Assembly: GCA_009781475.1 (NCBI GenBank)
Contig: WQYB01000020.1
Location: 1-38,345 of the forward strand
Length of the DNA stretch: 38,345 nucleotides
Direction: 5' to 3'
Source of the DNA: Treponema sp.
Lineage (GTDB): Bacteria > Spirochaetota > Spirochaetia > Treponematales > Breznakiellaceae
Position 1 is the stretch's first letter. Every line of letters starts with the position of its first letter. The notes beneath the pieces are model-generated. The model made no database searches and was not told the origin of the DNA. It was given only the letters and a program-made list of their open reading frames with translations. Positions 1 to 29,206 of the stretch are shown here, in pieces. The position numbers and the translations under genes are program-made.

Positions 1-315
1 GGTAATAATAATCAAGAATTTGAAAAAATAAATTTAGATTTTAATAATATATTATCAATAGGGTTAATTATTCTTGGAATATACTTGATAATAAGTTCAT
101 TACCTGTATTATTTTCTTATACATCAAATTATATTGTAAGTAAAACAAGATTTGTTAATAATGAATATTTTTTAAAAGAATATTCTATAAAAGATGTTAT
201 AGAAATTATTGGAATAATAATAAAGATTATTGTATCCTATATAATTATAAGATATAATAATAAAATTATTGATAAAATTAATTATTTGAAAAATAAACAG
301 TCAAACGTCACTTAA
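1..315 (+). CDS. Partial small membrane protein of cassette 1
   Basis: The reading frame is open from the first base of the window, so the true start lies to the left; an internal TTG at 85 is not a convincing start. The visible 104 residues contain two hydrophobic stretches, roughly residues 18-41 and 66-84, separated by a polar loop, and end in a lysine/asparagine-rich tail. This suggests a two-pass inner-membrane protein. The TAA stop (313-315) lies inside the R'' box of the following attC, a common packing in integron cassettes. I do not recognise the family. Base composition is extremely AT-rich, like the other cassettes. Confidence 0.6.
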   Translation, partial: GNNNQEFEKINLDFNNILSIGLIILGIYLIISSLPVLFSYTSNYIVSKTRFVNNEYFLKEYSIKDVIEIIGIIIKIIVSYIIIRYNNKIIDKINYLKNKQSNVT

Positions 316-422
316 CAGGATTGTTAGCGTACGCCGCTGGAGCGGCTAGGGTTTCAGTTGTCTAGGTCAGTCGCTACGCTCGCTCTCACGCAAAACCGCC
401 ATATACAACCAGAAAGTTATGC
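310..422 (+). repeat. attC site 1 (113 bp)
   Basis: R'' acttaac is at 310-316 and R' gttatgc at 416-422. Inside, gattgtta after R'' and atacaacc before R' form the L''/L' pair, and the centre carries the gctacgctcgctctcacgc module seen in the other sites. R' has T at the second R position, a departure from GTTRRRY shared by several sites here. The crossover is expected between 416 and 417. Confidence 0.82.
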
Positions 423-461
423 GCAATGTCTAAAATAATAAATAAAACGATAAATTAATAA

Positions 462-490
462 TTGACAGAATTAATAAATAATAATAAAAT
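462..490 (+). promoter_or_regulatory. Cassette 2 promoter, leaderless geometry
   Basis: An exact TTGACA (462-467), 17-nt spacer and TAAAAT (485-490) form a strong sigma-70 promoter. Only six bases separate the -10 box from the ATG at 497, so transcription should begin at or next to the start codon. No Shine-Dalgarno sequence is present. Confidence 0.75.
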
Positions 491-496
491 ATAAAT

Positions 497-877
497 ATGA
501 ATGAAATAATATCGGAAAATTTACAGAAAAAATGTGTATTTTTGTCGAATGATTTTGAAAAAGTAAATAATGTCGAAAAATTACTAAAGAATAATAATTA
601 TGAATATGAAAAAATTATTGAAAATAAAAATAAAAATGAAATAATTGAATATTCAATAATTGTAAATTCAAATAATTACAATGAAATATGTGACATCATA
701 GAAGGAAATATAAATATTATAAATGAAAAGGAGAATACAAAGGTTTCTTTTTTTGGTATGTTATATGATAAGGATTATTTTGATCTTAAAAAACCGTATA
801 ATGTTGCAACAATATTTTCCTTATTATCAATATATATCATTTTTTTATTATTAATAATATTAGCTACACGAAATTAA
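497..877 (+). CDS. Small tail-anchored protein, possibly DUF2007-like
   Basis: 126 residues. The N-terminal 80 or so residues are soluble with an alternating pattern: a strand around CVFLSNDF, a helix with VEKLLKNNNYEYE, then a strand around SIIVNSNN followed by NEICDIIE. This resembles the small DUF2007 'putative signal transducing' ferredoxin-like fold, but the resemblance is only in pattern. Residues about 102-123 form one C-terminal transmembrane helix, so the domain would face the cytoplasm on a C-terminal anchor. It is the sole gene of its cassette, starts directly at its own promoter without an SD sequence, and is followed by attC 2. Function unknown. Confidence 0.75.
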   Translation: MNEIISENLQKKCVFLSNDFEKVNNVEKLLKNNNYEYEKIIENKNKNEIIEYSIIVNSNNYNEICDIIEGNINIINEKENTKVSFFGMLYDKDYFDLKKPYNVATIFSLLSIYIIFLLLIILATRN

Positions 878-891
878 AAATTAGAAACTGC

Positions 892-1027
892 GCATAATAC
901 ACGATTAACGCTAAGAAGTTGCTTTCGCAACATCAAAATCCAGAGGGTGGCTCAGGATACGTTCGGTTAGGTCGATCGCTGGGCTCGCTCTCATGCAAAA
1001 CTGTCATATGCAACCAGAATGTTAAGT
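892..1027 (+). repeat. attC site 2 (136 bp)
   Basis: R'' is the variant gcataat (892-898) and R' is a perfect gttaagt (1021-1027). TGCGCATAA (889-897) is the exact reverse complement of the first nine bases of the cassette (417-425). The centre holds the hairpin module gaagttgctttcgcaac and the gctcgctctcatgc module. Crossover is expected between 1021 and 1022. Confidence 0.85.
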
Positions 1028-1053
1028 GCAATACCAATGTTTAAGATATAGTA

Positions 1054-1082
1054 TTGACATAATCGAAATATTAATATAAAAT
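1054..1082 (+). promoter_or_regulatory. Cassette 3 promoter
   Basis: TTGACA (1054-1059), 17-nt spacer and TAAAAT (1077-1082). The predicted leader to the ATG at 1104 is about 15 nt and shows no Shine-Dalgarno sequence. An ATG at 1087 near the predicted transcription start opens only a six-codon frame. Confidence 0.72.
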
Positions 1083-1103
1083 TAAAATGGTAGTAAATAT
1101 TTT

Positions 1104-1610
1104 ATGAAAAAAAGAATAATTTATGTATTTATAATATTATTATGTTTTAATAATTGTAAAAATGATCAAAGATTAATGGAATTTCATAATGATAAATATG
1201 TTATATATAAAATGAAATACCCTAAAAATTATAGAGAATATTATAAAACAGATGAATATAGGAATTTCTATTTAATTTCAACTTTTGGTATAAGGTTGGA
1301 TTCTAATTATAGAAAAAATTTGAAAAATATTTATTTGTATGATGGAATAAATGGAATTGAATATATTATTAAGAATATTAATGATTTTGAAAATATAATT
1401 AATAATAATATTCCATCTAGTATAACAATAAATTATTATGAATTTTGTATAACAGGAAGCGGAATTGAAAATGTACAGAATATATTAAATGATATTCAAG
1501 ATATATTATCAAAAAAATATATAATATTTGAATTTAGTGGTGGTAGACCTTTTCAATTCAGACATTCAGAACCACAAACTATAATTATGTGTACTTGTTT
1601 AGGAGGATAA
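1104..1610 (+). CDS. Putative lipoprotein of unknown function
   Basis: 168 residues. The N-terminus MKKRIIYVFIILLCFNNC is a charged start plus hydrophobic core ending at Cys18, which would fit the relaxed lipoboxes of spirochaetes, although Asn at -1 is unusual. The mature part is rich in Asn, Ile and Tyr, with no domain I recognise, and ends in a Cys-x-Cys-containing tail CTCLGG. Export to the periplasm or outer surface is likely. It is the first gene of a two-gene cassette, followed not by a whole attC but by a truncated one (1625-1681), so gene and downstream neighbour probably came from two cassettes that fused. Confidence 0.7.
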   Translation: MKKRIIYVFIILLCFNNCKNDQRLMEFHNDKYVIYKMKYPKNYREYYKTDEYRNFYLISTFGIRLDSNYRKNLKNIYLYDGINGIEYIIKNINDFENIINNNIPSSITINYYEFCITGSGIENVQNILNDIQDILSKKYIIFEFSGGRPFQFRHSEPQTIIMCTCLGG

Positions 1611-1624
1611 AATAAAAGTTATAT

Positions 1625-1681
1625 AAGCCGTACTGCACTTAACAAACGATTAGCGTAATAACCCTTGATTTAAATATATAT
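1625..1681 (+). repeat. Truncated attC, copy A of a 57-bp perfect repeat
   Basis: The 57 bases are identical to 5206-5262. They contain an R'' box acttaac (1637-1643) and the start of the L'' side, then break off after gattagcg and run into unrelated sequence without L' or R'. TGCACTTAA at 1634-1642 is the exact reverse complement of the cassette's first nine bases (1022-1030), which marks it as the original attC left arm. It should not be a recombination substrate. Confidence 0.8.
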
Positions 1682-1708
1682 TGACAATAATAGTATTTAT
1701 AATATAAT
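1681..1708 (+). promoter_or_regulatory. Perfect consensus promoter inside cassette 3
   Basis: TTGACA (1681-1686), 16-nt spacer and TATAAT (1703-1708), both hexamers exact. It begins where the 57-bp repeat ends and drives the ATG at 1731 with a leader of about 16 nt; aaagag just before the ATG is at best a weak SD. Confidence 0.75.
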
Positions 1709-1730
1709 GGATTAAAAGGTTTTAAAGAGT

Positions 1731-2402
1731 ATGAAAATAATATTAATAGTTATTATCACATTATTTGTAATTTCTTGTATTCCGAAAGATAATCATCCAA
1801 ATGATTGTGAAAATAAAAAAAATATTCCAGAATATATTCAAGATTATAAAGTTTATTTAGAAGAATTGGCTAATAATCAGAATATTTCTAGCTATTATTT
1901 TCCAAAAAATACATTTCATAATAATGATAGTATCGACGCTTTTACTCAAAATTGGTATGGTGAACATTTAGATATATTAGATAATGAAATAATTTATTTG
2001 TTAAATAATATAAATATTATAAGATTTACGTGTTTGAGAACATTTCATAAACCATTTTCAATAAAAATAGTTTGGAATAATAATGCAAAATTATATTTTA
2101 ATATGTCTAATGGAGCAGGAGGATATAATGCAGGTGAATTAATTATGCATTTCGAAAAGATATTAAATAATAGTCAAATTAATATTGTTTTAGATATTTT
2201 AAATAAATATGATTTTTTTAATCAAATGACCAATGAGGAATTAGACTTTATTGGTTTAGATGGTTCTAAATGGATAATTGAAGCAAATATAAATAATAAA
2301 TATAAAATAATACATAGGTGGACACCAGAAAGTGGTATAGCTTATGATATTGGAAAATATCTTATAGAATTATCTGGAGAAAGAATAGTAAATTTATATT
2401 AA
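1731..2402 (+). CDS. Lipoprotein with a GLDG..W..E / W.PE motif
   Basis: 223 residues. MKIILIVIITLFVISC is a good lipoprotein signal with Cys16 after VIS. The C-terminal half holds GLDGSKWIIEA (near residue 175), then Y-x4-HRWTPESG and a final helix GKYLIELSG. I have seen this arrangement in small uncharacterised proteins of many bacteria but cannot give a family name. The motif block looks intact, so this is a whole gene. It is the second gene of a cassette, with its own consensus promoter and a full attC after it. A lipid-anchored periplasmic or surface protein is the best inference. Confidence 0.75.
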   Translation: MKIILIVIITLFVISCIPKDNHPNDCENKKNIPEYIQDYKVYLEELANNQNISSYYFPKNTFHNNDSIDAFTQNWYGEHLDILDNEIIYLLNNINIIRFTCLRTFHKPFSIKIVWNNNAKLYFNMSNGAGGYNAGELIMHFEKILNNSQINIVLDILNKYDFFNQMTNEELDFIGLDGSKWIIEANINNKYKIIHRWTPESGIAYDIGKYLIELSGERIVNLY

Positions 2403-2422
2403 ATTATAAAAGGACTTACTGT

Positions 2423-2599
2423 ACTTAACAAGATTGTATGCACAAGCCGCTTTAGCGGCGTATATAATAAATTTCATAAAACACGCGACTGTAGGGAGGC
2501 ATATGCTTCACTGTTAGAGCGGCTAGGGTTACGTTCGGCTAGTTTGATCGCTACGCTCGCTCTCACGCAAAACTGTCATATACAATCAGAACGTTAGGC
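2423..2599 (+). repeat. attC site 3 (177 bp)
   Basis: R'' acttaac (2423-2429) and R' gttaggc (2593-2599). The outer arms gattgtat and atacaatc are exact complements (L''/L'). The centre contains a gccgctttagcggc hairpin, a gactgtagggagg module and the gctacgctcgctctcacgc module. Together with the promoter of the next cassette it fills the gene-free stretch 2403-2754; nothing else is seen there. Confidence 0.88.
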
Positions 2600-2720
2600 G
2601 AAATATCTGTTATAATTAATTATTGGATTTGTTAAAATGACTTAAAAGTTATAATAAAACTGGTTTTTTTGATAAATCTAAGGTATATTGTATTAAAAGT
2701 TAATTTTACAAACAACATTA

Positions 2721-2749
2721 TTGACAAAATAATTATTTCGGTATATTAT
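2721..2749 (+). promoter_or_regulatory. Cassette 4 promoter, leaderless geometry
   Basis: TTGACA (2721-2726), 17-nt spacer and TATTAT (2744-2749); TATATT at 2742-2747 is an alternative -10. The ATG at 2755 follows after five bases and there is no SD. Confidence 0.72.
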
Positions 2750-2754
2750 TTAAT

Positions 2755-3282
2755 ATGGCTTTTATTCCAATTGAAGATATTCAGTATAAAACAAATATTT
2801 CTCCAATTATGGTATTAGAAATATTATCTTCAAATACTGAAAAATATAATATATTAAAAACAATATTTTATAGTTATAATAAAATATTCATTGGAAAATT
2901 TGATAAAAATAATTTTAAATTGAAGTATAATTTTAATTTAAATAAAAAATTATTTATTTATTATAATACATTTGACCCAATAGCTTTTGGGAAAATATTT
3001 ACTAATAATAATGAAACAATAATTAATGTTTTTATGCGGATGAATATTTTTGATATTATATTTATGAGTATATGGCTAGGTGGATTTGTCTTTGGAATCA
3101 TATATTTTATTTTTTTAACTCAGATTGATTATAATTTTGAACGTTATTTTGCAATTTTAATTATATTTTTAGTCTTTGTAATAGGTTATATTTTTATGAC
3201 TGCTTTATTTAAGAGAAAAAGTAGTAAAATAATAAATAAACTATTAGAATTACTAAAATCTGAAATAATATATGAACTTTAA
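2755..3282 (+). CDS. Two-TM membrane protein of unknown function
   Basis: 175 residues. About 95 N-terminal residues are soluble (FIPIEDIQ..., with GKFDKNNFKLKY suggesting a beta-rich region), followed by two adjacent transmembrane helices at about 101-122 and 130-150, then a positively charged helix with RKSSKIINKLLELL. The VFMRMNIFD...WLGG segment entering the first helix recalls a common family of small bacterial membrane proteins of unknown function whose name I cannot give. It is the only gene of its cassette. The start is set by the promoter, whose -10 box lies just upstream; the mRNA is probably leaderless. Confidence 0.75.
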   Translation: MAFIPIEDIQYKTNISPIMVLEILSSNTEKYNILKTIFYSYNKIFIGKFDKNNFKLKYNFNLNKKLFIYYNTFDPIAFGKIFTNNNETIINVFMRMNIFDIIFMSIWLGGFVFGIIYFIFLTQIDYNFERYFAILIIFLVFVIGYIFMTALFKRKSSKIINKLLELLKSEIIYEL

Positions 3283-3300
3283 TAAAAAAGCAAATACTTC

Positions 3301-3516
3301 GCCTAACAGGATTGTATATGCTAAGAAGTTGCTTTTGCAACTTCAAAAGCCAGAGTGCGGCTCGGGCTACGAAAAAACGCAGTCGTCGGACTAAAGTCCG
3401 CCTTTGTGGTGTTTTTCTTCGCCACAGTTTGACAACCCTGCAAGACTCAAATCTTCGCATTGGCGATTTCGCTTATTCGGGTTGCCAAACTGTCATACAC
3501 AACTAAAACGTTATGT
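3301..3516 (+). repeat. attC site 4 (216 bp)
   Basis: R'' gcctaac (3301-3307) and R' gttatgt (3510-3516). TTCGCCTAA (3298-3306) is the exact reverse complement of the cassette's first nine bases (2594-2602). Central modules include an aagttgcttttgcaactt hairpin and a block cgcattggcgatttcgctta shared in near-identical form with attC site 6. It and the next promoter account for the whole 3283-3596 gap. Confidence 0.86.
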
Positions 3517-3562
3517 GCAATTATTGTAGGATGTAAAATATATAAAATAATTTAATACTTGC

Positions 3563-3590
3563 TTGACAAAAAAAATAAAAATGTTAGAAT
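3563..3590 (+). promoter_or_regulatory. Promoter of the mntA-hepT cassette, leaderless geometry
   Basis: TTGACA (3563-3568), 16-nt spacer and TAGAAT (3585-3590). Six bases separate it from the ATG of mntA at 3597, with no SD. Confidence 0.75.
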
Positions 3591-3596
3591 ATAGGT

Positions 3597-3893
3597 ATGT
3601 ATTCAATAGAAATTCCTGAAAAATATCAGGACGATATAAAAAAAGCCACTTTTTTGCTTAAAAATGAAGGTTGTAAGGATATTTTTCTATTTGGCTCATT
3701 AGTTACAGGAAAATTTCATCAGAATTCTGACATAGATATAGGTATAACTGGATTAAACCCAAAAAAATTTTTTAGAGTGTCGGCATCATTAGACAAAACA
3801 TTAATTAATAAAATAGATCTTGTAGATTTTGATTTAAATAATGATTTTTATAATCTTTTGGATAATTTGGGAGAAATAAAAAAAATTGGATAA
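3597..3893 (+). CDS. mntA: MntA-type minimal nucleotidyltransferase antitoxin
   Basis: 98 residues forming a minimal nucleotidyltransferase (MNT) domain. The signature GSX10DXD is complete: Gly33-Ser34, Asp45 and Asp47 (GSLVTGKFHQNSDIDI), and a third carboxylate is likely in KIDLVD near residue 74. In the characterised type VII MntA/HepT system, MntA neutralises its HEPN partner by adding AMP units to a tyrosine of the toxin's RX4HXY motif. The following gene carries exactly that motif, so the same mechanism is inferred. The stop overlaps the toxin start by eight bases, which fits coupled translation. The gene lies in an integron cassette with its own promoter. Confidence 0.88.
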   Translation: MYSIEIPEKYQDDIKKATFLLKNEGCKDIFLFGSLVTGKFHQNSDIDIGITGLNPKKFFRVSASLDKTLINKIDLVDFDLNNDFYNLLDNLGEIKKIG

Positions 3894-4347
3894 TAATATA
3901 AACTCAAAAATATTATATGAAATTTCTCAAATAGATAAGTTGATCAATGAGGCAGAACCATTAATAAAATTATGTAAATTAAAAGAACCTGATTTTATAG
4001 AATTATCAGCAGCGGCAATGGTGCTTCATTCATTTTATAATGGAATTGAAAATATACTAATATTAATAATTAAAAATTATGAAAAAAAATTACCGAATAG
4101 CAATAAATGGCATTTGGAATTATTAGAGAGAGCATTTGTTCCAATGGAAAATGGAAAGCAAGTATTTAAAAATGATTTACAAGAGACTATTGAAGAATAT
4201 TTAAAATTTAGACATTTTGTAAGGCATGCATATAGTTATAAATTTAAATGGGAACAAATGGAGCATTTAATTAATGATGTAGAAATATTTTGGAAGAATA
4301 TTAAAGATAATTTAAATTCATTTTTGGAAAATGATAAAAATATTTGA
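3886..4347 (+). CDS. hepT: HepT-type HEPN ribonuclease toxin
   Basis: 153 residues, mainly alpha-helical, HEPN domain. The catalytic RX4HXY motif is RHFVRHAY: Arg109, His114 and Tyr116, where Tyr116 matches the residue AMPylated by MntA in type VII systems. HEPN toxins of this type act as RNases on cellular RNA. The start is a TTG at 3886 overlapping the end of mntA by eight bases; no ATG occurs nearby in frame and the N-terminus is helical from there. Length agrees with usual HepT proteins. The motif is intact, so the toxin is probably active and the cassette self-maintaining. Confidence 0.87.
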   Translation: MDNNINSKILYEISQIDKLINEAEPLIKLCKLKEPDFIELSAAAMVLHSFYNGIENILILIIKNYEKKLPNSNKWHLELLERAFVPMENGKQVFKNDLQETIEEYLKFRHFVRHAYSYKFKWEQMEHLINDVEIFWKNIKDNLNSFLENDKNI

Positions 4348-4378
4348 AAAGAAACGTAATAAAAATAGAAAAACCAGC

Positions 4379-4529
4379 GCCTAACACACGATTAACGCTA
4401 AGAAGTTGCTTTCGCAACTTCAATAGCCATCGAACTTTTAGTTCGCGGGTGGTTCGGGATACGTTCGGCTAGGTCGGTCGCTGTGCTCGCTCTCATGCAA
4501 AGCCATCATATACAACCATAACGATAGGT
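4379..4529 (+). repeat. attC site 5 (151 bp)
   Basis: R'' gcctaac (4379-4385) and an altered R' gataggt (4523-4529), where T at position 2 of GTTRRRY has become A. Centre: the gaagttgctttcgcaacttc hairpin (8-bp stem), a cgaacttttagttcg hairpin and the gctcgctctcatgc module. The R' change may lower its recombination activity. Confidence 0.8.
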
Positions 4530-4557
4530 GAATTATAAGAAAATTAGTAAATAAAAC

Positions 4558-4585
4558 TTGACAAAATAATTTTAAATTATATAAT
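4558..4585 (+). promoter_or_regulatory. Cassette 6 promoter, perfect hexamers, leaderless geometry
   Basis: TTGACA (4558-4563), 16-nt spacer and TATAAT (4580-4585). Six bases separate it from the ATG at 4592. No SD is present. Confidence 0.78.
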
Positions 4586-4591
4586 AAAATA

Positions 4592-5197
4592 ATGAATAAA
4601 AAATATAAAATATTAATATGGATAATATGTATTTTTATAACACTAAATTCTTGTTTTATTAATAAAATTGAAGCTCAAGAAACATTTGACAATAGAATTG
4701 TAATCAAATATATTCACAGTAGAAGAATACCTCACAATCAAATTATTTGTACATTATATAGAACACATAATGGAATATATCTTATGCATATTGAAACAAT
4801 TGCCATGACTTATCGGGAAGAAAACTGGAATATGGAGGATGAAAATACTCGGAGATATGTTGAAAGTGAAGAATATATAAATAGTCAAATTCAATTAAGA
4901 AATAGAATGGAAGAATTTGCAAAAGAAAATATAAATATAATAATTGAAATTGATAAGGATTTTTTTGAAAGGATTTCCAATGAAATTTGGAACATTAATT
5001 TAATGAGAATTGTTCAAGAGAATAATAGCTCCACAGGAAGGGATGGATCATCTGTAATAATTGAATATGGTTCATTTCAATATTTTATGTCTATAAATGT
5101 TTGGAATCCAAGAAACACAAGAGGAGATGTAGAGAAAATAAATTCAATTGCTTTAGAAGTATTTAGAAAAGCAAATGTAGATCAATGGTATCATTAA
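4592..5197 (+). CDS. Exported protein or lipoprotein of unknown function
   Basis: 201 residues. The N-terminus has a positively charged start and a hydrophobic core ending in TLNSC, a fair lipobox with Cys21; a signal peptidase I site after EAQ would be the alternative. The mature part is hydrophilic, with a Glu/Asn-rich helical middle (residues about 80-125) and beta-like ends. I recognise no domain. It is the first of two genes in its cassette and, like the gene at 1104, is followed by the 57-bp truncated attC rather than a full one. Probably a periplasmic or surface protein. Confidence 0.72.
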   Translation: MNKKYKILIWIICIFITLNSCFINKIEAQETFDNRIVIKYIHSRRIPHNQIICTLYRTHNGIYLMHIETIAMTYREENWNMEDENTRRYVESEEYINSQIQLRNRMEEFAKENINIIIEIDKDFFERISNEIWNINLMRIVQENNSSTGRDGSSVIIEYGSFQYFMSINVWNPRNTRGDVEKINSIALEVFRKANVDQWYH

Positions 5198-5205
5198 AAT
5201 ATATA

Positions 5206-5262
5206 AAGCCGTACTGCACTTAACAAACGATTAGCGTAATAACCCTTGATTTAAATATATAT
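5206..5262 (+). repeat. Truncated attC, copy B of the 57-bp perfect repeat
   Basis: Identical over 57 bases to 1625-1681, with R'' acttaac at 5218-5224 and no L' or R'. Downstream sequence differs: copy A runs into a TTGACA promoter, copy B into atgtagattaaatt and the ATG at 5275. Perfect identity in two unrelated cassettes argues for recent copying or transfer of this junction. Confidence 0.82.
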
Positions 5263-5274
5263 GTAGATTAAATT

Positions 5275-6210
5275 ATGAAAAATATTTTTACTATAATAAC
5301 ATTTCTATTATTTTTTGGAACATGTGTAAATAATGAGTTAAAATCTGATAATTTTAATTATCAGATTCAATTTAGAAACAATGAAAATAGAAGACAATCA
5401 AATTATTACGAAGAAAGTAAAGTATTTTGGTTTTATAATCCAACAAATATTGACCATTTAAGTCGTACATTAGATATAGAAAATTTAATTATTTCATATT
5501 CACAAGATATTTTAAATTTAAATTTCTTAAAAGAAATTCCACAATTAACAGATTTAAAGAAACTTACTATTATATCAAAATACAATATCGAAAATATGGA
5601 GGCACTAAGATTTTTACATAATTTAGAAGAATTACATATTTCTGGTTCCAGGTCAACAATGGTTGATATTTCTCCAATTTTTTATTTAGATTCATTAAAA
5701 TATTTAGAATTATCAGAATTATATCATATTAATGATATATCATTAATTAGTAATTTAAACAATTTAAAACGTATTACAATTAGTAATTGTAACAATATTA
5801 GAGATATTAATCCAATATTTGATTTAATAGGGTTAGAATGGCTGCAAATACTATTAAATGAAGAAAAAGATTTGACAAATATTACAAATTTACAGCAATT
5901 AGAACTATTAAATATTCGAATAAATAGACAGGATAATATAGACAGTGTATCAAATCTTAATAATCTTAAAAGTTTAATAATTCAATTTGATATTATTCAT
6001 GATGTTACCCCATTATTAAATTTAAAATATTTGGAAGAAATAATATTCTTAGGTGATAAAGTTGATGTTATACCATTAGCAACGAGTAAATCATTGAAAC
6101 AAATTGTTGTAATGTTTAGTACATATGAAAAATATCAAGAATACATAAAAAATGGAGGAGATATATTTGAAAAAAATGGTATACAGTTTTATTATAGAGT
6201 TCCACATTGA
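5275..6210 (+). CDS. Leucine-rich-repeat lipoprotein
   Basis: 311 residues. MKNIFTIITFLLFFGTC gives a lipoprotein signal with Cys17. From about residue 65 to 285 there are roughly nine leucine-rich repeats of 20-24 residues of the form L..L..L.I......I.DI..I..L (for example LEELHISGS, LKYLELSEL, LKRITISNC, LKSLIIQFD), the SDS22/internalin-like type. Such proteins are solenoids that bind other proteins, and in spirochaetes several are surface-exposed. No ribosome-binding site is seen. A TTGATT (5246-5251) and TAAATT (5269-5274) upstream are a poor promoter, so transcription may come from 4558. A ligand cannot be inferred. Confidence 0.82.
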   Translation: MKNIFTIITFLLFFGTCVNNELKSDNFNYQIQFRNNENRRQSNYYEESKVFWFYNPTNIDHLSRTLDIENLIISYSQDILNLNFLKEIPQLTDLKKLTIISKYNIENMEALRFLHNLEELHISGSRSTMVDISPIFYLDSLKYLELSELYHINDISLISNLNNLKRITISNCNNIRDINPIFDLIGLEWLQILLNEEKDLTNITNLQQLELLNIRINRQDNIDSVSNLNNLKSLIIQFDIIHDVTPLLNLKYLEEIIFLGDKVDVIPLATSKSLKQIVVMFSTYEKYQEYIKNGGDIFEKNGIQFYYRVPH

Positions 6211-6234
6211 AAAAATAATAAGCACAAATACGTC

Positions 6235-6510
6235 GCTTAACAGGATTGTATGCACTAGCCGCTTTTACGGTGTATATGATAAATTTCATAAAGCACGCGA
6301 CTGTAGGGAGGTATATATTAAGAAGTTGCTTTCGTAACTTCAAAAGCCAGAGGGTGGCTAGGGTTTCGTTCAGCTAAGTTAGTCGCTTTCGGCTAGTTCC
6401 CACGCAAACTTCCACCAACAGTTTTGCAACCCTGTAAAACTCAAGGTTTCGCATTGGCGGTTTCGCTTATTCGGGTTGCCAAACCGTCATATACTACCAG
6501 AACGTTATGT
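6235..6510 (+). repeat. attC site 6 (276 bp), the longest here
   Basis: R'' gcttaac (6235-6241) and R' gttatgt (6504-6510). Outer arms gattgtat and atactacc are the L''/L' pair. It stacks nearly all modules found in the other sites: gccgcttttacggtg, gactgtagggagg, the aagttgctttcgtaactt hairpin and the cgcattggcggtttcgctta block. With the promoter at 6538 it accounts for the 6211-6591 gap. Confidence 0.84.
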
Positions 6511-6537
6511 GCCATTTAGATATAAGAGTAAAAAATA

Positions 6538-6566
6538 TTGACAAAAGATTATAAATATTATACATT
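6538..6566 (+). promoter_or_regulatory. Cassette 7 promoter
   Basis: TTGACA (6538-6543), 17-nt spacer and TACATT (6561-6566). Unlike the leaderless cassettes, this one has a leader of about 19 nt with a clear GGAGG (6582-6586) ahead of the ATG at 6592. Confidence 0.65.
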
Positions 6567-6591
6567 ATCATTAATATTTATGGAGGAAAAG

Positions 6592-7473
6592 ATGAAAAAG
6601 ATAATTATTTTGTTAGTTTTTTTAATTTCAACAGGTTTGTTTGCGCAAGATTTTTCAGTATTTCATGATGAAAATGAAAGAACAAGGCATACCAGCGGAG
6701 AATTAAGTATTTTGAGTTTTTATGAAGGCTCCATATTTGAATTTTCAAGTATTTTTTCCAGCAATGCTTTAAGGATATTACTTGGAGAAGTGGATATTCT
6801 GGCATCACGCTGGGTGCAATTAGATATTTTTTCACTAGCTCAATTAGATAACCGCAACCTGAGACTTTTAAGAAACATGATCTACGCAAGGCATGGATTA
6901 CGTTTTAATTCAGCGGATTTAACATCATATTTCAGGCAATTTGATTGGTATAACCCAAGGTTAAATAATGTAGATAATTTATTAACTGATGTTGATAAAT
7001 GGCATATAGGATATATTCAGGCATATGAAAGTAGAAATGAAAATTTACCTAACATAACTTTAAATAACCCTATTGGTTTTTGGCATGATTCACCTGCAGT
7101 TGCTGCCTCTTATGGAGAAAGATTTATATTTCATCCAAATAATAGGCTAGAATTCTACTTTTCTAATATGCAAAATATGCCAATTGCTTCTCGCCTTAAT
7201 GGAACTTATTTAATAAGGGGAAATGTATTAATTTATTCTGTTACTGAAATATATTTTGTTATGAATAATGCTGATATAAGAAGATATACATGGGGAAATA
7301 GCTGGGTTAATAGTACAGAAAACAAATTAACTCTTGAAAGACCCATAATTTATAAATTTCCTGTTTCGGGTATTACAACAAGTACATTTGGTACTGATCG
7401 AACTCTTGAAACATTAGAAATAGGTGGTAGAAAATATTTCAAATTTTCTAATAATGTAAATTATGGTAGGTAA
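6592..7473 (+). CDS. Secreted YARHG-domain protein
   Basis: 293 residues from the ATG at 6592. This start is chosen because GGAGG lies six bases upstream and because MKKIIILLVFLISTGLFAQ is a textbook signal peptide with cleavage after FAQ; in-frame TTG 6538 is the -35 box and ATG 6580 would put charges ahead of the signal. The middle holds IYARHGLRFNSADLTSYF, the signature of the YARHG domain, followed by W-Y-N-P and a helix. The C-terminal 120 residues look like beta strands (GFWHDSP, RLEFYFSN, LNGTYLIRGN). YARHG proteins are exported, of unknown function. It has a higher GC content and a better SD than the other cassette genes, suggesting a different donor. Confidence 0.83.
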   Translation: MKKIIILLVFLISTGLFAQDFSVFHDENERTRHTSGELSILSFYEGSIFEFSSIFSSNALRILLGEVDILASRWVQLDIFSLAQLDNRNLRLLRNMIYARHGLRFNSADLTSYFRQFDWYNPRLNNVDNLLTDVDKWHIGYIQAYESRNENLPNITLNNPIGFWHDSPAVAASYGERFIFHPNNRLEFYFSNMQNMPIASRLNGTYLIRGNVLIYSVTEIYFVMNNADIRRYTWGNSWVNSTENKLTLERPIIYKFPVSGITTSTFGTDRTLETLEIGGRKYFKFSNNVNYGR

Positions 7474-7504
7474 AATCGTGAAAATAAATGTACACCCACA
7501 CTTC

Positions 7505-7665
7505 GCTTAAAAAAAATGTATATATACATCGCTTTAGCGGTGTATATAATAAATATCATAAAGCATGCGACTGTAGGGAGGTATATATTAAGAAGTTGCT
7601 TTCGTAATTTCAAAAGCCAGAGGAAGGCTCGAGCAAAAAAGCGTCGCCAATTTAAAATGTTAGGC
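7505..7665 (+). repeat. attC site 7 (161 bp)
   Basis: R'' is the degraded gcttaaa (7505-7511) and R' a good gttaggc (7659-7665). The left half matches sites 3 and 6 (cgctttagcggtgtatata, gactgtagggagg, aagttgctttcgtaa). The right half is diverged, with no atacaacc L' box. It is the last recognisable attC of the array. Confidence 0.72.
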
Positions 7666-7691
7666 GGAATAGCAAAAAATAGGAATTTCTA

Positions 7692-7720
7692 TTGACATTT
7701 ATATTTTTTTATTGTAAAAT
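7692..7720 (+). promoter_or_regulatory. Cassette 8 promoter
   Basis: TTGACA (7692-7697), 17-nt spacer and TAAAAT (7715-7720). The leader to the ATG at 7738 is about 11 nt and includes TTGGAG as a modest SD. Confidence 0.73.
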
Positions 7721-7737
7721 GTTATTTGGAGAATATT

Positions 7738-8430
7738 ATGTATAAAAAGATTTTTTTTGTTGTTATTTTTATGGGATTTTATTTTAATTTAATAGCTCAA
7801 AACTTTGTTTTAATAGATACTAATGATAGGAGGTTGCAGCAATATAATAATAATTTAATGAATTATTTTATAAGTAAAAATGAAAATATAGTACATGAAA
7901 CAATAGATGTCTATAGAAGAGCTTATCGAAACAATATTTTGGATGAAATTGATGTGATTGTAATTCATTTCTTTTATGGAATTAAAATCCATGATCATGA
8001 AAAATATGATCGTTACTTTTCTATAATAAAGCAAAGCAATATACAAAGGCTTTTAGGTCTATTTGAAATAATTGAAACATATGATCTTGAGTTACATTTA
8101 TTAAATCATAATGTTGTACCTCAATTAAATGATATTTATTGGACACTATATTTTTCATCTGAAAATACAAAATATTTAGATAGAATAATTGATTTTATAA
8201 ATAATTATAATAATGAAACTGAAGATTTATTTTCATATTTAACTGCACGAGCAGCGTTATTTTCATTTATGGCAAATATTAAAGTATATCCAACTGTTTT
8301 GGATTATATACAAAACACTTCTAATTTATCAAATGATTTAAAATATTATATTATAAATCAAACAATTGATCATTTAAATATGGAAACTGTAAATTATTTG
8401 AGAATACAAAGAGAAAACGGAATATGGTAA
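7738..8430 (+). CDS. Exported protein of unknown function, mostly helical
   Basis: 230 residues from ATG 7738; TTG at 7726 is in frame but belongs to the ribosome-binding region. MYKKIFFVVIFMGFYFNLIAQ is a signal peptide, probably cleaved after IAQ. The mature protein is helical, with DIYWTLYFSSENTKYLDRII near residue 135, a motif I associate with exported bacterial proteins of the D.YW..YF.SG..+Y+..I type, followed by a helical repeat-like C-terminus. No catalytic motif is apparent. It is the first gene of the terminal cassette and lies 53 nt before a small membrane-protein gene, likely in the same transcript. Confidence 0.75.
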   Translation: MYKKIFFVVIFMGFYFNLIAQNFVLIDTNDRRLQQYNNNLMNYFISKNENIVHETIDVYRRAYRNNILDEIDVIVIHFFYGIKIHDHEKYDRYFSIIKQSNIQRLLGLFEIIETYDLELHLLNHNVVPQLNDIYWTLYFSSENTKYLDRIIDFINNYNNETEDLFSYLTARAALFSFMANIKVYPTVLDYIQNTSNLSNDLKYYIINQTIDHLNMETVNYLRIQRENGIW

Positions 8431-8483
8431 TAATACAGAAGAAATAAATGATATATTTGTATTTATTAGAGAAATAAAAAATA

Positions 8484-8921
8484 ATGGAAAATGAAAAAAG
8501 GTTTTACATAAAATATCCCTTTAGGAATTATTATATATATATATTTATATTGTTATGTCAGCCAATACTTGTTATTTTATTTGAAGTTTTAGTTGGTACT
8601 ACTATATTTATAATAATTTGGGTAAATTTGGTTGTTTTATTTTTTGGTTATAATTTATTTAAAATGTTATTGGTAAATAAATTTAATCATTCATATTTTC
8701 AATTTAATAAAGAGGGAATTATTGGAGTTAATCCTTTTAATAGAATTTATAAATATTATTGGAATGATTATAATGGATATATTTTAATTGATAACATATT
8801 AATGATACAATTTAAGAATAAGAATATAAAAATAATAAATGATTTCTTAAAAAATGGAAATATTAATGATATAATTAAAATAATAGAAGAATATAAAATA
8901 GATATAGAATATAATAACTAA
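8484..8921 (+). CDS. Two-TM protein with a PH-like C-terminal domain
   Basis: 145 residues. Two transmembrane helices at about 16-37 and 39-62 are followed by a strand-rich part (YFQFNKEGIIG, YKYYWNDYNGYILIDNILMIQFKNK) that has the look of a bacterial PH-like domain, then a short helix pair ending in EYNN. The assignment of the fold is only by pattern. The stop TAA (8919-8921) overlaps by four bases the stop of the convergent radical SAM gene, so no attC fits after it. This is the junction between array and chromosome backbone. Confidence 0.72.
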   Translation: MENEKRFYIKYPFRNYYIYIFILLCQPILVILFEVLVGTTIFIIIWVNLVVLFFGYNLFKMLLVNKFNHSYFQFNKEGIIGVNPFNRIYKYYWNDYNGYILIDNILMIQFKNKNIKIINDFLKNGNINDIIKIIEEYKIDIEYNN

Positions 8922-9859
8922 CTATTTCCTGACCAAACCGGCACTGATAATTTCGATGGAAAAGGGTTAATCCGCCTAAAATCCGGAAGCCATTCTTTAC
9001 CTGTTACAAGTTCCTGGCAAAAGCCGTCTTCTATTGCGAATTCTTCAAGCCAGTTCATTACAGTTTCATAATCATTTTTATTTACATACCGCATCGGCGC
9101 TTTTCCTTTAATTCCTGGTATTGGTGTATATTGAGTCATAATTGAAAGCAAAGCGCGGTCTTTTGCGTTTTTTGCAAACCATTGTATAACTGCTTTTGTA
9201 GATTCAAGGAAACCGGGTAAAATTAAATGGCGGATAATTACATTTTCACCTGCGTTTTCAGGATATTTTTCATACACGATATCGATCATTTTTTTTATTG
9301 CCGCTTTTGCAACATCGGGATAATCGGGAGCGTTGGAAAACTTTGCAGAAATTTTACTGTCCAGTGTTTTTAAGTCGGGAAGAAAAATATCGACATGATC
9401 CTTTAATAAATCCAGAGCTTCAAGACTGTCGTACCCGGATGAATTCCAAAGAATCGGTATATTTAAACCTTTCTTTTTAGCAGCGTTAAATCCTTCGATG
9501 ATCCCTGGGACAGCATGGCTTCCCGTTACAATATTGATATTTTCCGCTCCATTGTCGCGCAATGCTAAACAAATGTCTGCAAACTCTTCTGCACTAACGA
9601 TTTTCCCGATTGGCGCTTCTTTATTTACACCTTGCGAAACCTGGTAATTTTGGCAAAAAACACAGCCTAAGTTACAACCGCTTATAAAAATTGTCCCGGA
9701 ACCCCCCGTTCCTATAAGCGGCGGTTCTTCTCCGCGATGGATTACCGCAGTGCCGATTTTTAAAACAGCGGTTTCTCCGCAGAAACCTGTTTCTCCGTTA
9801 AGTCTGTCAACTGCGCAATTTCTCGGACATATTGTGCAGGATTTATAAATGTCTTTCAT
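8918..9859 (-). CDS. Radical SAM protein, PflA-like (COG1313/PflX type)
   Basis: 313 residues. Near the N-terminus CTICPRNC and GFCG give a cysteine cluster, followed at about residue 60 by CNLGCVFCQNYQ, the CX3CX2C motif that binds the radical-SAM [4Fe-4S] cluster. The rest is a TIM-barrel-like sequence with NIVTGSHAVPGI and an LPDLKTLDSKISAKFS segment. This matches the pyruvate formate-lyase-activase-like proteins, whose substrate is generally unknown. It stands alone on the - strand, tail-to-tail with the last cassette gene and divergent from the fab operon. No pflB-like partner is in the window. It is the first gene with backbone-like base composition. Confidence 0.87.
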   Translation of the reverse strand: MKDIYKSCTICPRNCAVDRLNGETGFCGETAVLKIGTAVIHRGEEPPLIGTGGSGTIFISGCNLGCVFCQNYQVSQGVNKEAPIGKIVSAEEFADICLALRDNGAENINIVTGSHAVPGIIEGFNAAKKKGLNIPILWNSSGYDSLEALDLLKDHVDIFLPDLKTLDSKISAKFSNAPDYPDVAKAAIKKMIDIVYEKYPENAGENVIIRHLILPGFLESTKAVIQWFAKNAKDRALLSIMTQYTPIPGIKGKAPMRYVNKNDYETVMNWLEEFAIEDGFCQELVTGKEWLPDFRRINPFPSKLSVPVWSGNS

Positions 9860-28555: not shown

Positions 28556-29206
28556 TTATACACCTCTGGAATTGTTTCGTCTAGAGCTTACAAAACGTGA
28601 AAAATCATTAATATTTTTAACTGTAATTCTGTCAGGGTATATTTCTACGCGCCGTTGGTTTACAAAATGTCCAAGCACATCTCTTACTTCATTGACACTC
28701 ATACCTGCCCAGTGAGCGACACCTTCAACAGTTGTTTTAAATTCACGCCGTTCGCTTGTTTTATCAATATCAGGCTGAGTTTCATCAAGCATAAGAAAAA
28801 CGTCGGCAATTTTTGCCTGCGGGTCGGGCAGAGTAAGGATCATGAACCTTCTTTTAGAATCATAAATGCGTTTACAAAACATTTTTAAAAGTTTTAAAGC
28901 GATTTGCGGATTTCCAAGCAAAAGAATTTCAAAGTTTTGTGAATTGAATTCCAGTACAGTAACTTCGTCTAAAGCGATGGCAGTAGCAGAACGCGGTGAT
29001 TGTTCCAAAATAGCCATTTCACCAAACATTTCGGAAGGATAGAGAATATCCAAAGTCCTTTCTAATTCTCCGACAAGTTTTACAAGCTGAACCCTGCCTG
29101 CTTGAATCAGGTAGAAGGTATCGTTTAACTCGAATTCGGAAAAAATTATTTCTCCCTTTTGAAATGTCCGGGAAAAACGGCCGAATGCCGCCATATCCAT
29201 AGCCAT
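28556..29206 (-). CDS. Crp/Fnr-family transcription regulator
   Basis: 216 residues. Residues about 10-125 form a cyclic-nucleotide-binding-type beta barrel (FSEFELNDTFYLIQAGRVQL, PSEMFGEMAILEQSPRSATAIA), where GEMAILE..PRSATA is the phosphate-binding cassette with the Arg and Ser/Thr that contact cNMP. After a long helix there is a winged helix-turn-helix (VEGVAHWAGMSVNEVRDVLGHF) for DNA binding. It is the second of two cNMP-domain genes in a row, two bases apart, so the pair may work as sensor and regulator. Confidence 0.88.
   Translation of the reverse strand: MAMDMAAFGRFSRTFQKGEIIFSEFELNDTFYLIQAGRVQLVKLVGELERTLDILYPSEMFGEMAILEQSPRSATAIALDEVTVLEFNSQNFEILLLGNPQIALKLLKMFCKRIYDSKRRFMILTLPDPQAKIADVFLMLDETQPDIDKTSERREFKTTVEGVAHWAGMSVNEVRDVLGHFVNQRRVEIYPDRITVKNINDFSRFVSSRRNNSRGV

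Follow-up and report, generated by a model that had tools for sequence, protein, structure and literature searches.

A Cassette Array in a Treponema Contig, Probably of an Integron-Like System with a Tyrosine Recombinase That Lacks the I2 Helix

Introduction

The left part of a 38,345-bp contig of Treponema sp. (WQYB01000020.1; Spirochaetota, Breznakiellaceae) contains AT-rich genes at positions 1–8921, all on the + strand and spaced by attC-like repeats. The whole contig is called the window here. It is contig C20 of the 216-contig draft genome G000 (GCA_009781475.1; 93.3% complete, 5.0% contamination). What kind of system built this array? A first-pass annotation proposed an integron cassette array in a spirochaete chromosome, with reference to T. 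denticola. The sites, the + strand genes and the matches between cassette heads and tails bear out an integron-like array. The T. denticola type is rejected: classical arrays of the order have mostly short sites, extrahelical bases and an integrase bearing the I2 helix, and the site type of the window sits downstream of I2-less tyrosine recombinases in its family. The window probably holds the distal, partly decayed end of a chromosomal array that belongs to an integron-like system with such an I2-less recombinase; classical integrons would be the sister type of this system.

Published work presents the I2 helix as required for the capture of cassettes, as the innovation behind the use of single-stranded DNA and as a defining mark of integron integrases (IntI) (PMC7790495, PMC4792948, PMC9668308; here and below, PMC numbers refer to excerpts of the papers). 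In the excerpt of PMC7790495, I2 is described only in IntI. In the excerpt of Wu et al. 2013 (PMC3607928), two termite species, T. primitia and T. azotonutricium, are reported to be without an integron. According to that of a survey (PMC9024848), integrons are extremely rare in Firmicutes, and one complete integron is named in Bacteroidetes proper.

Recombinases without I2 in the Family of the Window

None of the 39 genomes of the genus (the window's genome and 38 genus mates) contains a protein above the cut-off of the integron integrase model TIGR02249. In 21 of them, a recombinase of mostly ~400 aa reaches ~107–128 bits, and its match stops where the IntI-specific region begins. The classification of these proteins as ordinary XerC or XerD was rejected. 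Among 390 genomes of the order, classical IntI is found in 80, of which five are among the 195 genomes of the window's family. The I2-less profile is matched in 75 of the 390 at E ≤ 1e-60, 61 of them in the family, a count of profile matches. Five genomes (G201, G227, G343, G391, and G395) match both profiles, at different places.

The I2-less proteins lack the IntI-specific I2 region and are ~42 residues short relative to VchIntI. R, K, H, R, H, and Y, which we take to be the catalytic residues, are invariant columns in their alignment. The predicted fold of one I2-less protein (AlphaFold, 24 rows, pLDDT 77.4; the single-sequence prediction gave 36.6) has no helix at the I2 position. XerA/XerC-like recombinases (4a8e, 5hxy), which also have no I2, are among the highest structural and sequence scores; in the structural ranking, VIA-align 2 re-examined the Foldseek list only. 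The best NCBIfam score is with a XerA/integron-integrase model (212.8 bits, cut-off 220). Unlike the XerA/XerC-like proteins, the I2-less recombinases have an N-terminal extension of ~120 residues, and in many loci their gene is followed by cassettes. An N-terminal extension is present in both I2-less (L028, L201, L202) and classical (L242, L245) spirochaete integrases, and no Pfam match was found in that of the I2-less proteins scanned. For the XerD- and XerC-like proteins that the window's genome itself encodes on contig C7, the highest scores come from Xer models (288 and 306 bits), each under the cut-off of its model.

Cassettes Downstream of the Recombinases

In three single-contig genomes, cassettes follow the I2-less gene: G047 (4,646,109 bp), with 26 sites found in 20 kb plus 19 kb, G179 (4,059,867 bp), and Brucepastera parasyntrophica (G409; 3,239,032 bp). 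Open reading frames (ORFs) are on the array strand in 25 of the 26 cassettes of G047, the 26th being without ORF, and in all seven of G409. Fifteen spirochaete I2-less loci include 3 kb or more of downstream sequence, and in eight of these the site finder detected sites of the same orientation downstream. As controls, it saw one site in 29 kb of the remaining window and two in 101 kb of other loci. Sites of L270 and L079 are in the other orientation or on the other side. The four sites of G042 have L boxes like those of the window, GG[A]TTGTAT or close to it. Similar I2-less loci are present in Bacillota, Bacteroidota, and Fibrobacterota. At five loci of Saccharibacillus, Paenibacillus, and Flavobacteriaceae (L088, L093, L129, L154, L155), attC-like sites are seen downstream of related recombinases.

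Structure of the Sites

The sites share the order R'', L'', L', R', the G^TT crossover and a variable loop with classical attC sites of the VCR (Vibrio cholerae repeat) type (PMC2727003). They differ from these in having no canonical extrahelical G/T, in their unequal central spacers and in an R stem of ~17 nt with a fixed G.T (bottom strand) or A.C (top strand). Extrahelical bases in the L stem are present in 28 of 29 classical sites (two or more in 20) and absent in 59 of 60 sites of the I2-less type, as seen by one finder; the sites of the window are not among these 60, nor are two Bacillota loci with no finder sites. The central spacer is longer on the R' side than on the R'' side in 57 of 58 I2-less-type sites, and the spacers are equal in 26 of 27 classical ones. 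The L'' and L' arms vary in sequence between site types yet remain paired. In seven sites of three Flavobacteriaceae loci, all 13 L''/L' substitutions, counted by eye, are A/G in the same direction, with G.T on the bottom strand. The putative crossover GTTA is preceded mostly by AAC or GAC.

In four genomes, the head of every cassette is, but for one fixed mismatch, the reverse complement of the R'' tail of the same cassette. Such pairing extends over ~17 nt in I2-less arrays vs 6–7 nt in classical ones. Position 10 after the G of G^TT is unpaired: in four genomes, 0 of 28, 0 of 7, 0 of 3, and 0 of 2 cassettes pair there. The head has A in all 46 chosen cassettes and the reverse-complemented tail has G in 45 of them, a mismatch that reads A.C on the top strand and G.T on the bottom strand. 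Stability favours the bottom R stem in 42 of the 46 vs 1 of 19 classical cassettes. When 2.05 Mb of loci were searched by the head/tail rule, the 190 matches over both strands corresponded to 95 cassettes, of which 85 are A/G at position 10 in one orientation; shuffled sequences gave 10 matches. The rule found no cassette at the XerD- and XerC-like genes on contig C7.

By head-tail complementarity alone, a same-strand A/G cassette lies downstream in 15 of 36 spirochaete I2-less loci, 10 of 60 loci of other phyla, and 0 of 15 classical loci. On the recombinase strand, spirochaetes have 36 A/G, four G/A, and four A/T cassettes, other phyla 15 A/G and five A/A, and classical loci none; shuffling predicts 0.00, 0.05, and 0.00 A/G cassettes, respectively. 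The G/A cases can be accounted for because the L270 array points the opposite way. Four long classical arrays contain no A/G cassette on either strand. In 8 of the 15 positive loci, the first cassette head is found 113–199 nt past the recombinase stop codon, and the attI site is presumed to lie ~110–200 nt after the gene.

The Array of the Window

The array consists of nine AT-rich cassettes, with seven full attC-like sites and two truncated ones. The seven sites of the first-pass annotation are thus confirmed as full sites, and the truncated copies at 1637 and 5218 raise the number of units to nine. The features are as follows.

1..315 (+): partial cassette 0; terminal part of a membrane-protein-like ORF without family
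310..422 (+): attC-like site A1; R'' ACTTAAC, R' GTTATGC at 416; L'' GG[A]TTGT / L' ACAACC
462..490 (+): promoter-like sequence of cassette 1 (TTGACA-17-TAAAAT), 6 nt upstream of the start codon
497..877 (+): cassette 1 ORF, 126 aa, no family over cut-offs
892..1027 (+): attC-like site A2; R'' GCATAAT, R' GTTAAGT at 1021; L boxes unpaired; tail matches the cassette 1 head
1054..1082 (+): promoter-like sequence of cassette 2
1104..1610 (+): cassette 2 ORF, 168 aa, no family over cut-offs
1625..1690 (+): attC-like site A3, truncated, without L'/R'; R'' ACTTAAC at 1637; repeat shared with A7
1681..1708 (+): promoter-like sequence of cassette 3, 12/12 consensus matches
1731..2402 (+): cassette 3 ORF, 223 aa, lipoprotein-like N-terminus (by eye)
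2423..2599 (+): attC-like site A4; R'' ACTTAAC, R' GTTAGGC at 2593; L'' GATTGTAT pairs perfectly, no extrahelical base
2721..2749 (+): promoter-like sequence of cassette 4
2755..3282 (+): cassette 4 ORF, 175 aa, membrane-protein-like (by eye)
3301..3516 (+): attC-like site A5; R'' GCCTAAC, R' GTTATGT at 3510; L'' TTGTATATG with a single mismatch
3563..3590 (+): promoter-like sequence of cassette 5
3597..3893 (+): cassette 5 ORF a, minimal nucleotidyltransferase (PF18765)
3886..4347 (+): cassette 5 ORF b, HepT-like (PF20797); MNT-HepT pair with ORF a
4379..4529 (+): attC-like site A6; R'' GCCTAAC, R' GATAGGT at 4523; no pairing of the L boxes
4558..4585 (+): promoter-like sequence of cassette 6, 12/12 consensus matches
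4592..5197 (+): cassette 6 ORF, 201 aa, no family; 81% identical DNA in G024
5206..5271 (+): truncated attC-like site A7, copy of A3; R'' at 5218
5275..6210 (+): cassette 7 ORF, 311 aa, leucine-rich repeats below Pfam cut-offs; sole cassette without a promoter-like sequence by the rule used
6235..6510 (+): attC-like site A8; R'' GCTTAAC, R' GTTATGT at 6504
6538..6566 (+): promoter-like sequence of cassette 8
6592..7473 (+): cassette 8 ORF, YARHG-domain protein (PF13308)
7505..7665 (+): attC-like site A9, degenerate; no pairing of the L boxes; R'' ending AAA, R' GTTAGGC at 7659
7692..7720 (+): promoter-like sequence of cassette 9
7738..8430 (+): ORF a of the last cassette, which has no closing attC; no family
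8484..8921 (+): last cassette ORF b, no family; array end

The left end of the contig falls inside the array, and its start is cut off. The integrase and attI that the first-pass annotation expected to the left of an active system are not on this contig. The array ends at 8921, followed by a convergent backbone ORF at 8918–9859 (–). GC content of 1-kb windows is 0.20–0.32 up to 9000 and 0.31–0.47 from 9001 onward. The AT-richness of the cassettes, the break at ~8922, the gene orientation and the R''-to-R' lengths (113 to 276 bp in the seven full sites) are all as first annotated.

Cassettes lie between G^TT points, bounded by R'' and R' boxes (RYYYAAC ... GTTRRRY), the latter loose in the window (GTTATGC, GTTATGT). 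The boxes had been described as present in the order R''/L''/L'/R'. This holds for R'' and R', with deviations in A2 (R'' ending AAT), A6 (R' GATAGGT), and A9 (R'' ending AAA), and clear L''/L' pairing is seen in only 3–4 of the seven full sites: A1, A4, A5, and weakly A8. As for extrahelical bases, A4 has none and A1 only one, two pairs from the spacer. The match of own head to own tail, the mark of cassette circles, is found in three of six testable cassettes, and so is the A/G pattern at position 10 with extended pairing.

The model R1 was built from the 3' halves of four sites only because MAFFT aligned full sites poorly. It finds parts of A5 and A8, neither of which was in its input (E 1.3e-4 to 6.1e-7). 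This recovery and the matching of three of six testable cassettes indicate that the array is not due to chance. Rfam models gave no match in the window. The first finder settings recovered only A4 among the window sites, plus one false match at 29123. Plain DNA folding of whole sites was rejected as uninformative, because long internal hairpins mask the outer stem and because R' belongs to the next cassette in arrays.

A3 and A7 (1625–1690 and 5206–5271) are one truncated copy, a 66-nt repeat with 94% identity. The first bases of the next cassette are identical as well, yet the cassette genes differ. Site loops at 300–7674 are mosaic in build: a small set of modules recurs in them, variously combined. 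A2 and A6 resemble hybrids of two site types. The array end looks old and partly decayed, since three of six cassettes are unmatched and clear L pairing is limited to 3–4 of seven sites.

Repeats scattered elsewhere in the genome had been named in advance as an argument against an array, and this concern applies in part: further attC-like sites are present on at least six other contigs (C38, C46, C50, C67, C111, and C112), near the contig end in five of them, with some between cassette-like genes. R1 matches are lower bounds, as 110 of up to 757 first-look candidates were scored per genome. C46 and C67 contain one A/G cassette each. Some of these sites adjoin PIN- or methyltransferase-like genes (named by eye). 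BLAST gave no support to the R1 matches on C47 and C59.

Proposed Mechanism and Alternative Explanations

It can be proposed that the attC site folds as a single strand. This would probably be the bottom strand, given that the fixed mismatch reads G.T there and A.C on the top strand, and given the unequal length of the two central spacers. The G.T mark and the unequal spacers would do the job of the extrahelical bases and the I2 helix in classical integrons. The I2-less recombinase would cut at G^TTA, most often after AAC or GAC, so that cassettes would enter in one orientation. Polarity is reported to be settable by central-spacer orientation even when extrahelical bases are missing (PMC2727003), which agrees with the proposed role of unequal spacers. 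Head covaries with tail and L'' with L', orientation follows one strand, and in relatives the recombinase is in cis; that the system recombines we infer from sequence. We incline slightly to a wider proposal, a second, widespread integron class in Spirochaetota, Bacillota, Bacteroidota, and Fibrobacterota, in which an I2-less integrase would capture cassettes by bottom-strand folding, the strand being set by the G.T/A.C asymmetry in the long R stem and the unequal spacers.

Several observations weigh against an I2-less integron-like system as the origin of the window array. No integron integrase, I2-less or classical, was found in the 216 contigs of the window's genome, where the best matches are XerC, XerD, and weaker relatives; the link between array and recombinase therefore rests on the site type and on relatives. 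Four loci (L259, L260, L272, and L273) show no sites despite >10 kb downstream. No same-strand A/G cassette was seen at 21 of the 36 loci in spirochaetes and at 50 of the 60 in other phyla, partly owing to short flanks. L267 (G215) has an I2-less recombinase with six near-identical sites (ACATAAC...GTTATGT), and its cassettes match over 6 nt only, without the position-10 pattern. The 46 cassettes were chosen, with G215 and three non-matching window cassettes excluded, and the 60 sites include six from contig pieces without recombinase (L177, L181, L165, and L167, the last two from the window's genome). On average, the bottom R stem gains little, ~0.7–2 kcal/mol. Classical arrays match head to tail as well, over 6–7 nt. 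In the window, three of six testable cassettes have no head-tail match, and the L boxes of A2, A6, and A9 (three of seven sites) are unpaired.

The I2-less recombinase could instead act on double-stranded sites, like Xer, with the hairpin only a relic or an arrangement of binding sites. The top score with a XerA/integron-integrase model and the connection of I2 with single-strand capture (PMC7790495, PMC4792948) are in line with this idea. R'' is ~95–280 bp from the crossover, yet ~17 nt of head-tail complementarity are kept while the sequence varies between cassettes. Such covariation at such a distance is hard to explain without one-strand folding, and we regard action on double strands as unlikely. 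It is still less likely that the window is the remnant of a classical integron, a cluster of attC sites lacking an integrase (CALIN), whose cassettes were captured by a since-lost IntI bearing I2 and whose sites have merely decayed. Like a CALIN, the window array has no integrase beside it in the assembly; its sites are decayed and truncated, five genomes of the family contain classical IntI, and CALINs are common and overcounted in drafts (PMC9024848). Unlike a CALIN, it is cut by a contig end and its sites are of another type. Decay would not yield the perfect L stems, unequal spacers and fixed position-10 mismatch common to intact arrays beside I2-less recombinases, and such cassettes are seen at none of the 15 classical loci and in none of the four long classical arrays. 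Attribution to an immobile family of intergenic repeats, spread by ordinary duplication or gene conversion, is very improbable. The copies on other contigs and the near-identical A3 and A7 would fit it; the head-tail matching at the G^TT boundary, the ORFs on the array strand in G047 and G409, the recombinase in cis, and a homologue of a cassette in G019, similar to the window from within 5 nt of G^TT, argue against it.

Relation to Classical Integrons

In a tree of 52 rows with a long-branched Xer outgroup, classical IntI form one clade (100/100). Fourteen I2-less proteins of the family group with Brucepastera (96/91) and stand, together with other I2-less and other-phylum recombinases, apart from classical IntI (96/83). 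A single clade of I2-less and classical proteins was not rejected by the approximately unbiased (AU) test (p 0.352). Thus, both the loss of I2 and its never having been present are compatible with the data. The I2-less type may resemble an ancestor of integron integrases that preceded I2.

The I2-less type resembles the classical integrons of T. denticola and T. succinifaciens (PMC3607928) in its one-strand cassettes, attC-like sites with R boxes and N-terminal extension of the integrase, and, in most loci here, in transcription of the recombinase towards the array. It differs from the classical integrases of this analysis, which bear I2 and whose sites have extrahelical bases and equal spacers. 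The type is apparently undescribed: no description of an I2-less cassette system was found in the literature searched, with subscription journals and preprints mostly outside its reach.

If the proposal is true, the role ascribed to I2 becomes directly testable, since the sites of I2-less arrays are without the bases on which I2 docks: either cassettes can be captured without I2, or its place is taken by a different strand mark. Surveys that require I2 or rely on classical attC models would be prone to overlook these arrays. I2-less loci were found here in both Firmicutes and Bacteroidetes, listed as poor in integrons in the survey excerpt (PMC9024848).

Cassette Genes and Promoter-Like Sequences

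As first noted, most cassette genes belong to no nameable family. Family searches gave one MNT-HepT pair, one YARHG protein, and one protein with leucine-rich repeats below cut-off; the others have no family over cut-offs. PADLOC gave only weak nucleotidyltransferase-like matches in the window.

The window cassettes mostly appear to carry their own promoter-like sequence. TTGACA-16/17-TANNNT with 10–12 of 12 matches is present within 100 nt before the start codon in eight of nine cassettes vs 6 of 106 windows inside ORFs. The case rests on the position of the best matches and not on their total: region-wide, 104 matches were counted, not far above shuffled sequences (mean 85.5, sd 10.4). In four cassettes, the putative –10 element ends 5–6 nt before ATG, so that the transcript would be leaderless. 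With their own promoters, the cassettes could be expressed far from an integron promoter. Elsewhere, by a slightly different 150-nt rule, promoters follow sites in 2 of 26 cases in G047, 1 of 8 in G409, 1 of 2 in G179, and 2 of 19 in classical arrays.

L278 and L277 are homologues of the MNT-HepT cassette of the window. No site was found beside the homologue in G019. The homologue in G037 has a head/tail match of ~17 nt (by eye). These two homologues suggest insertion away from arrays.

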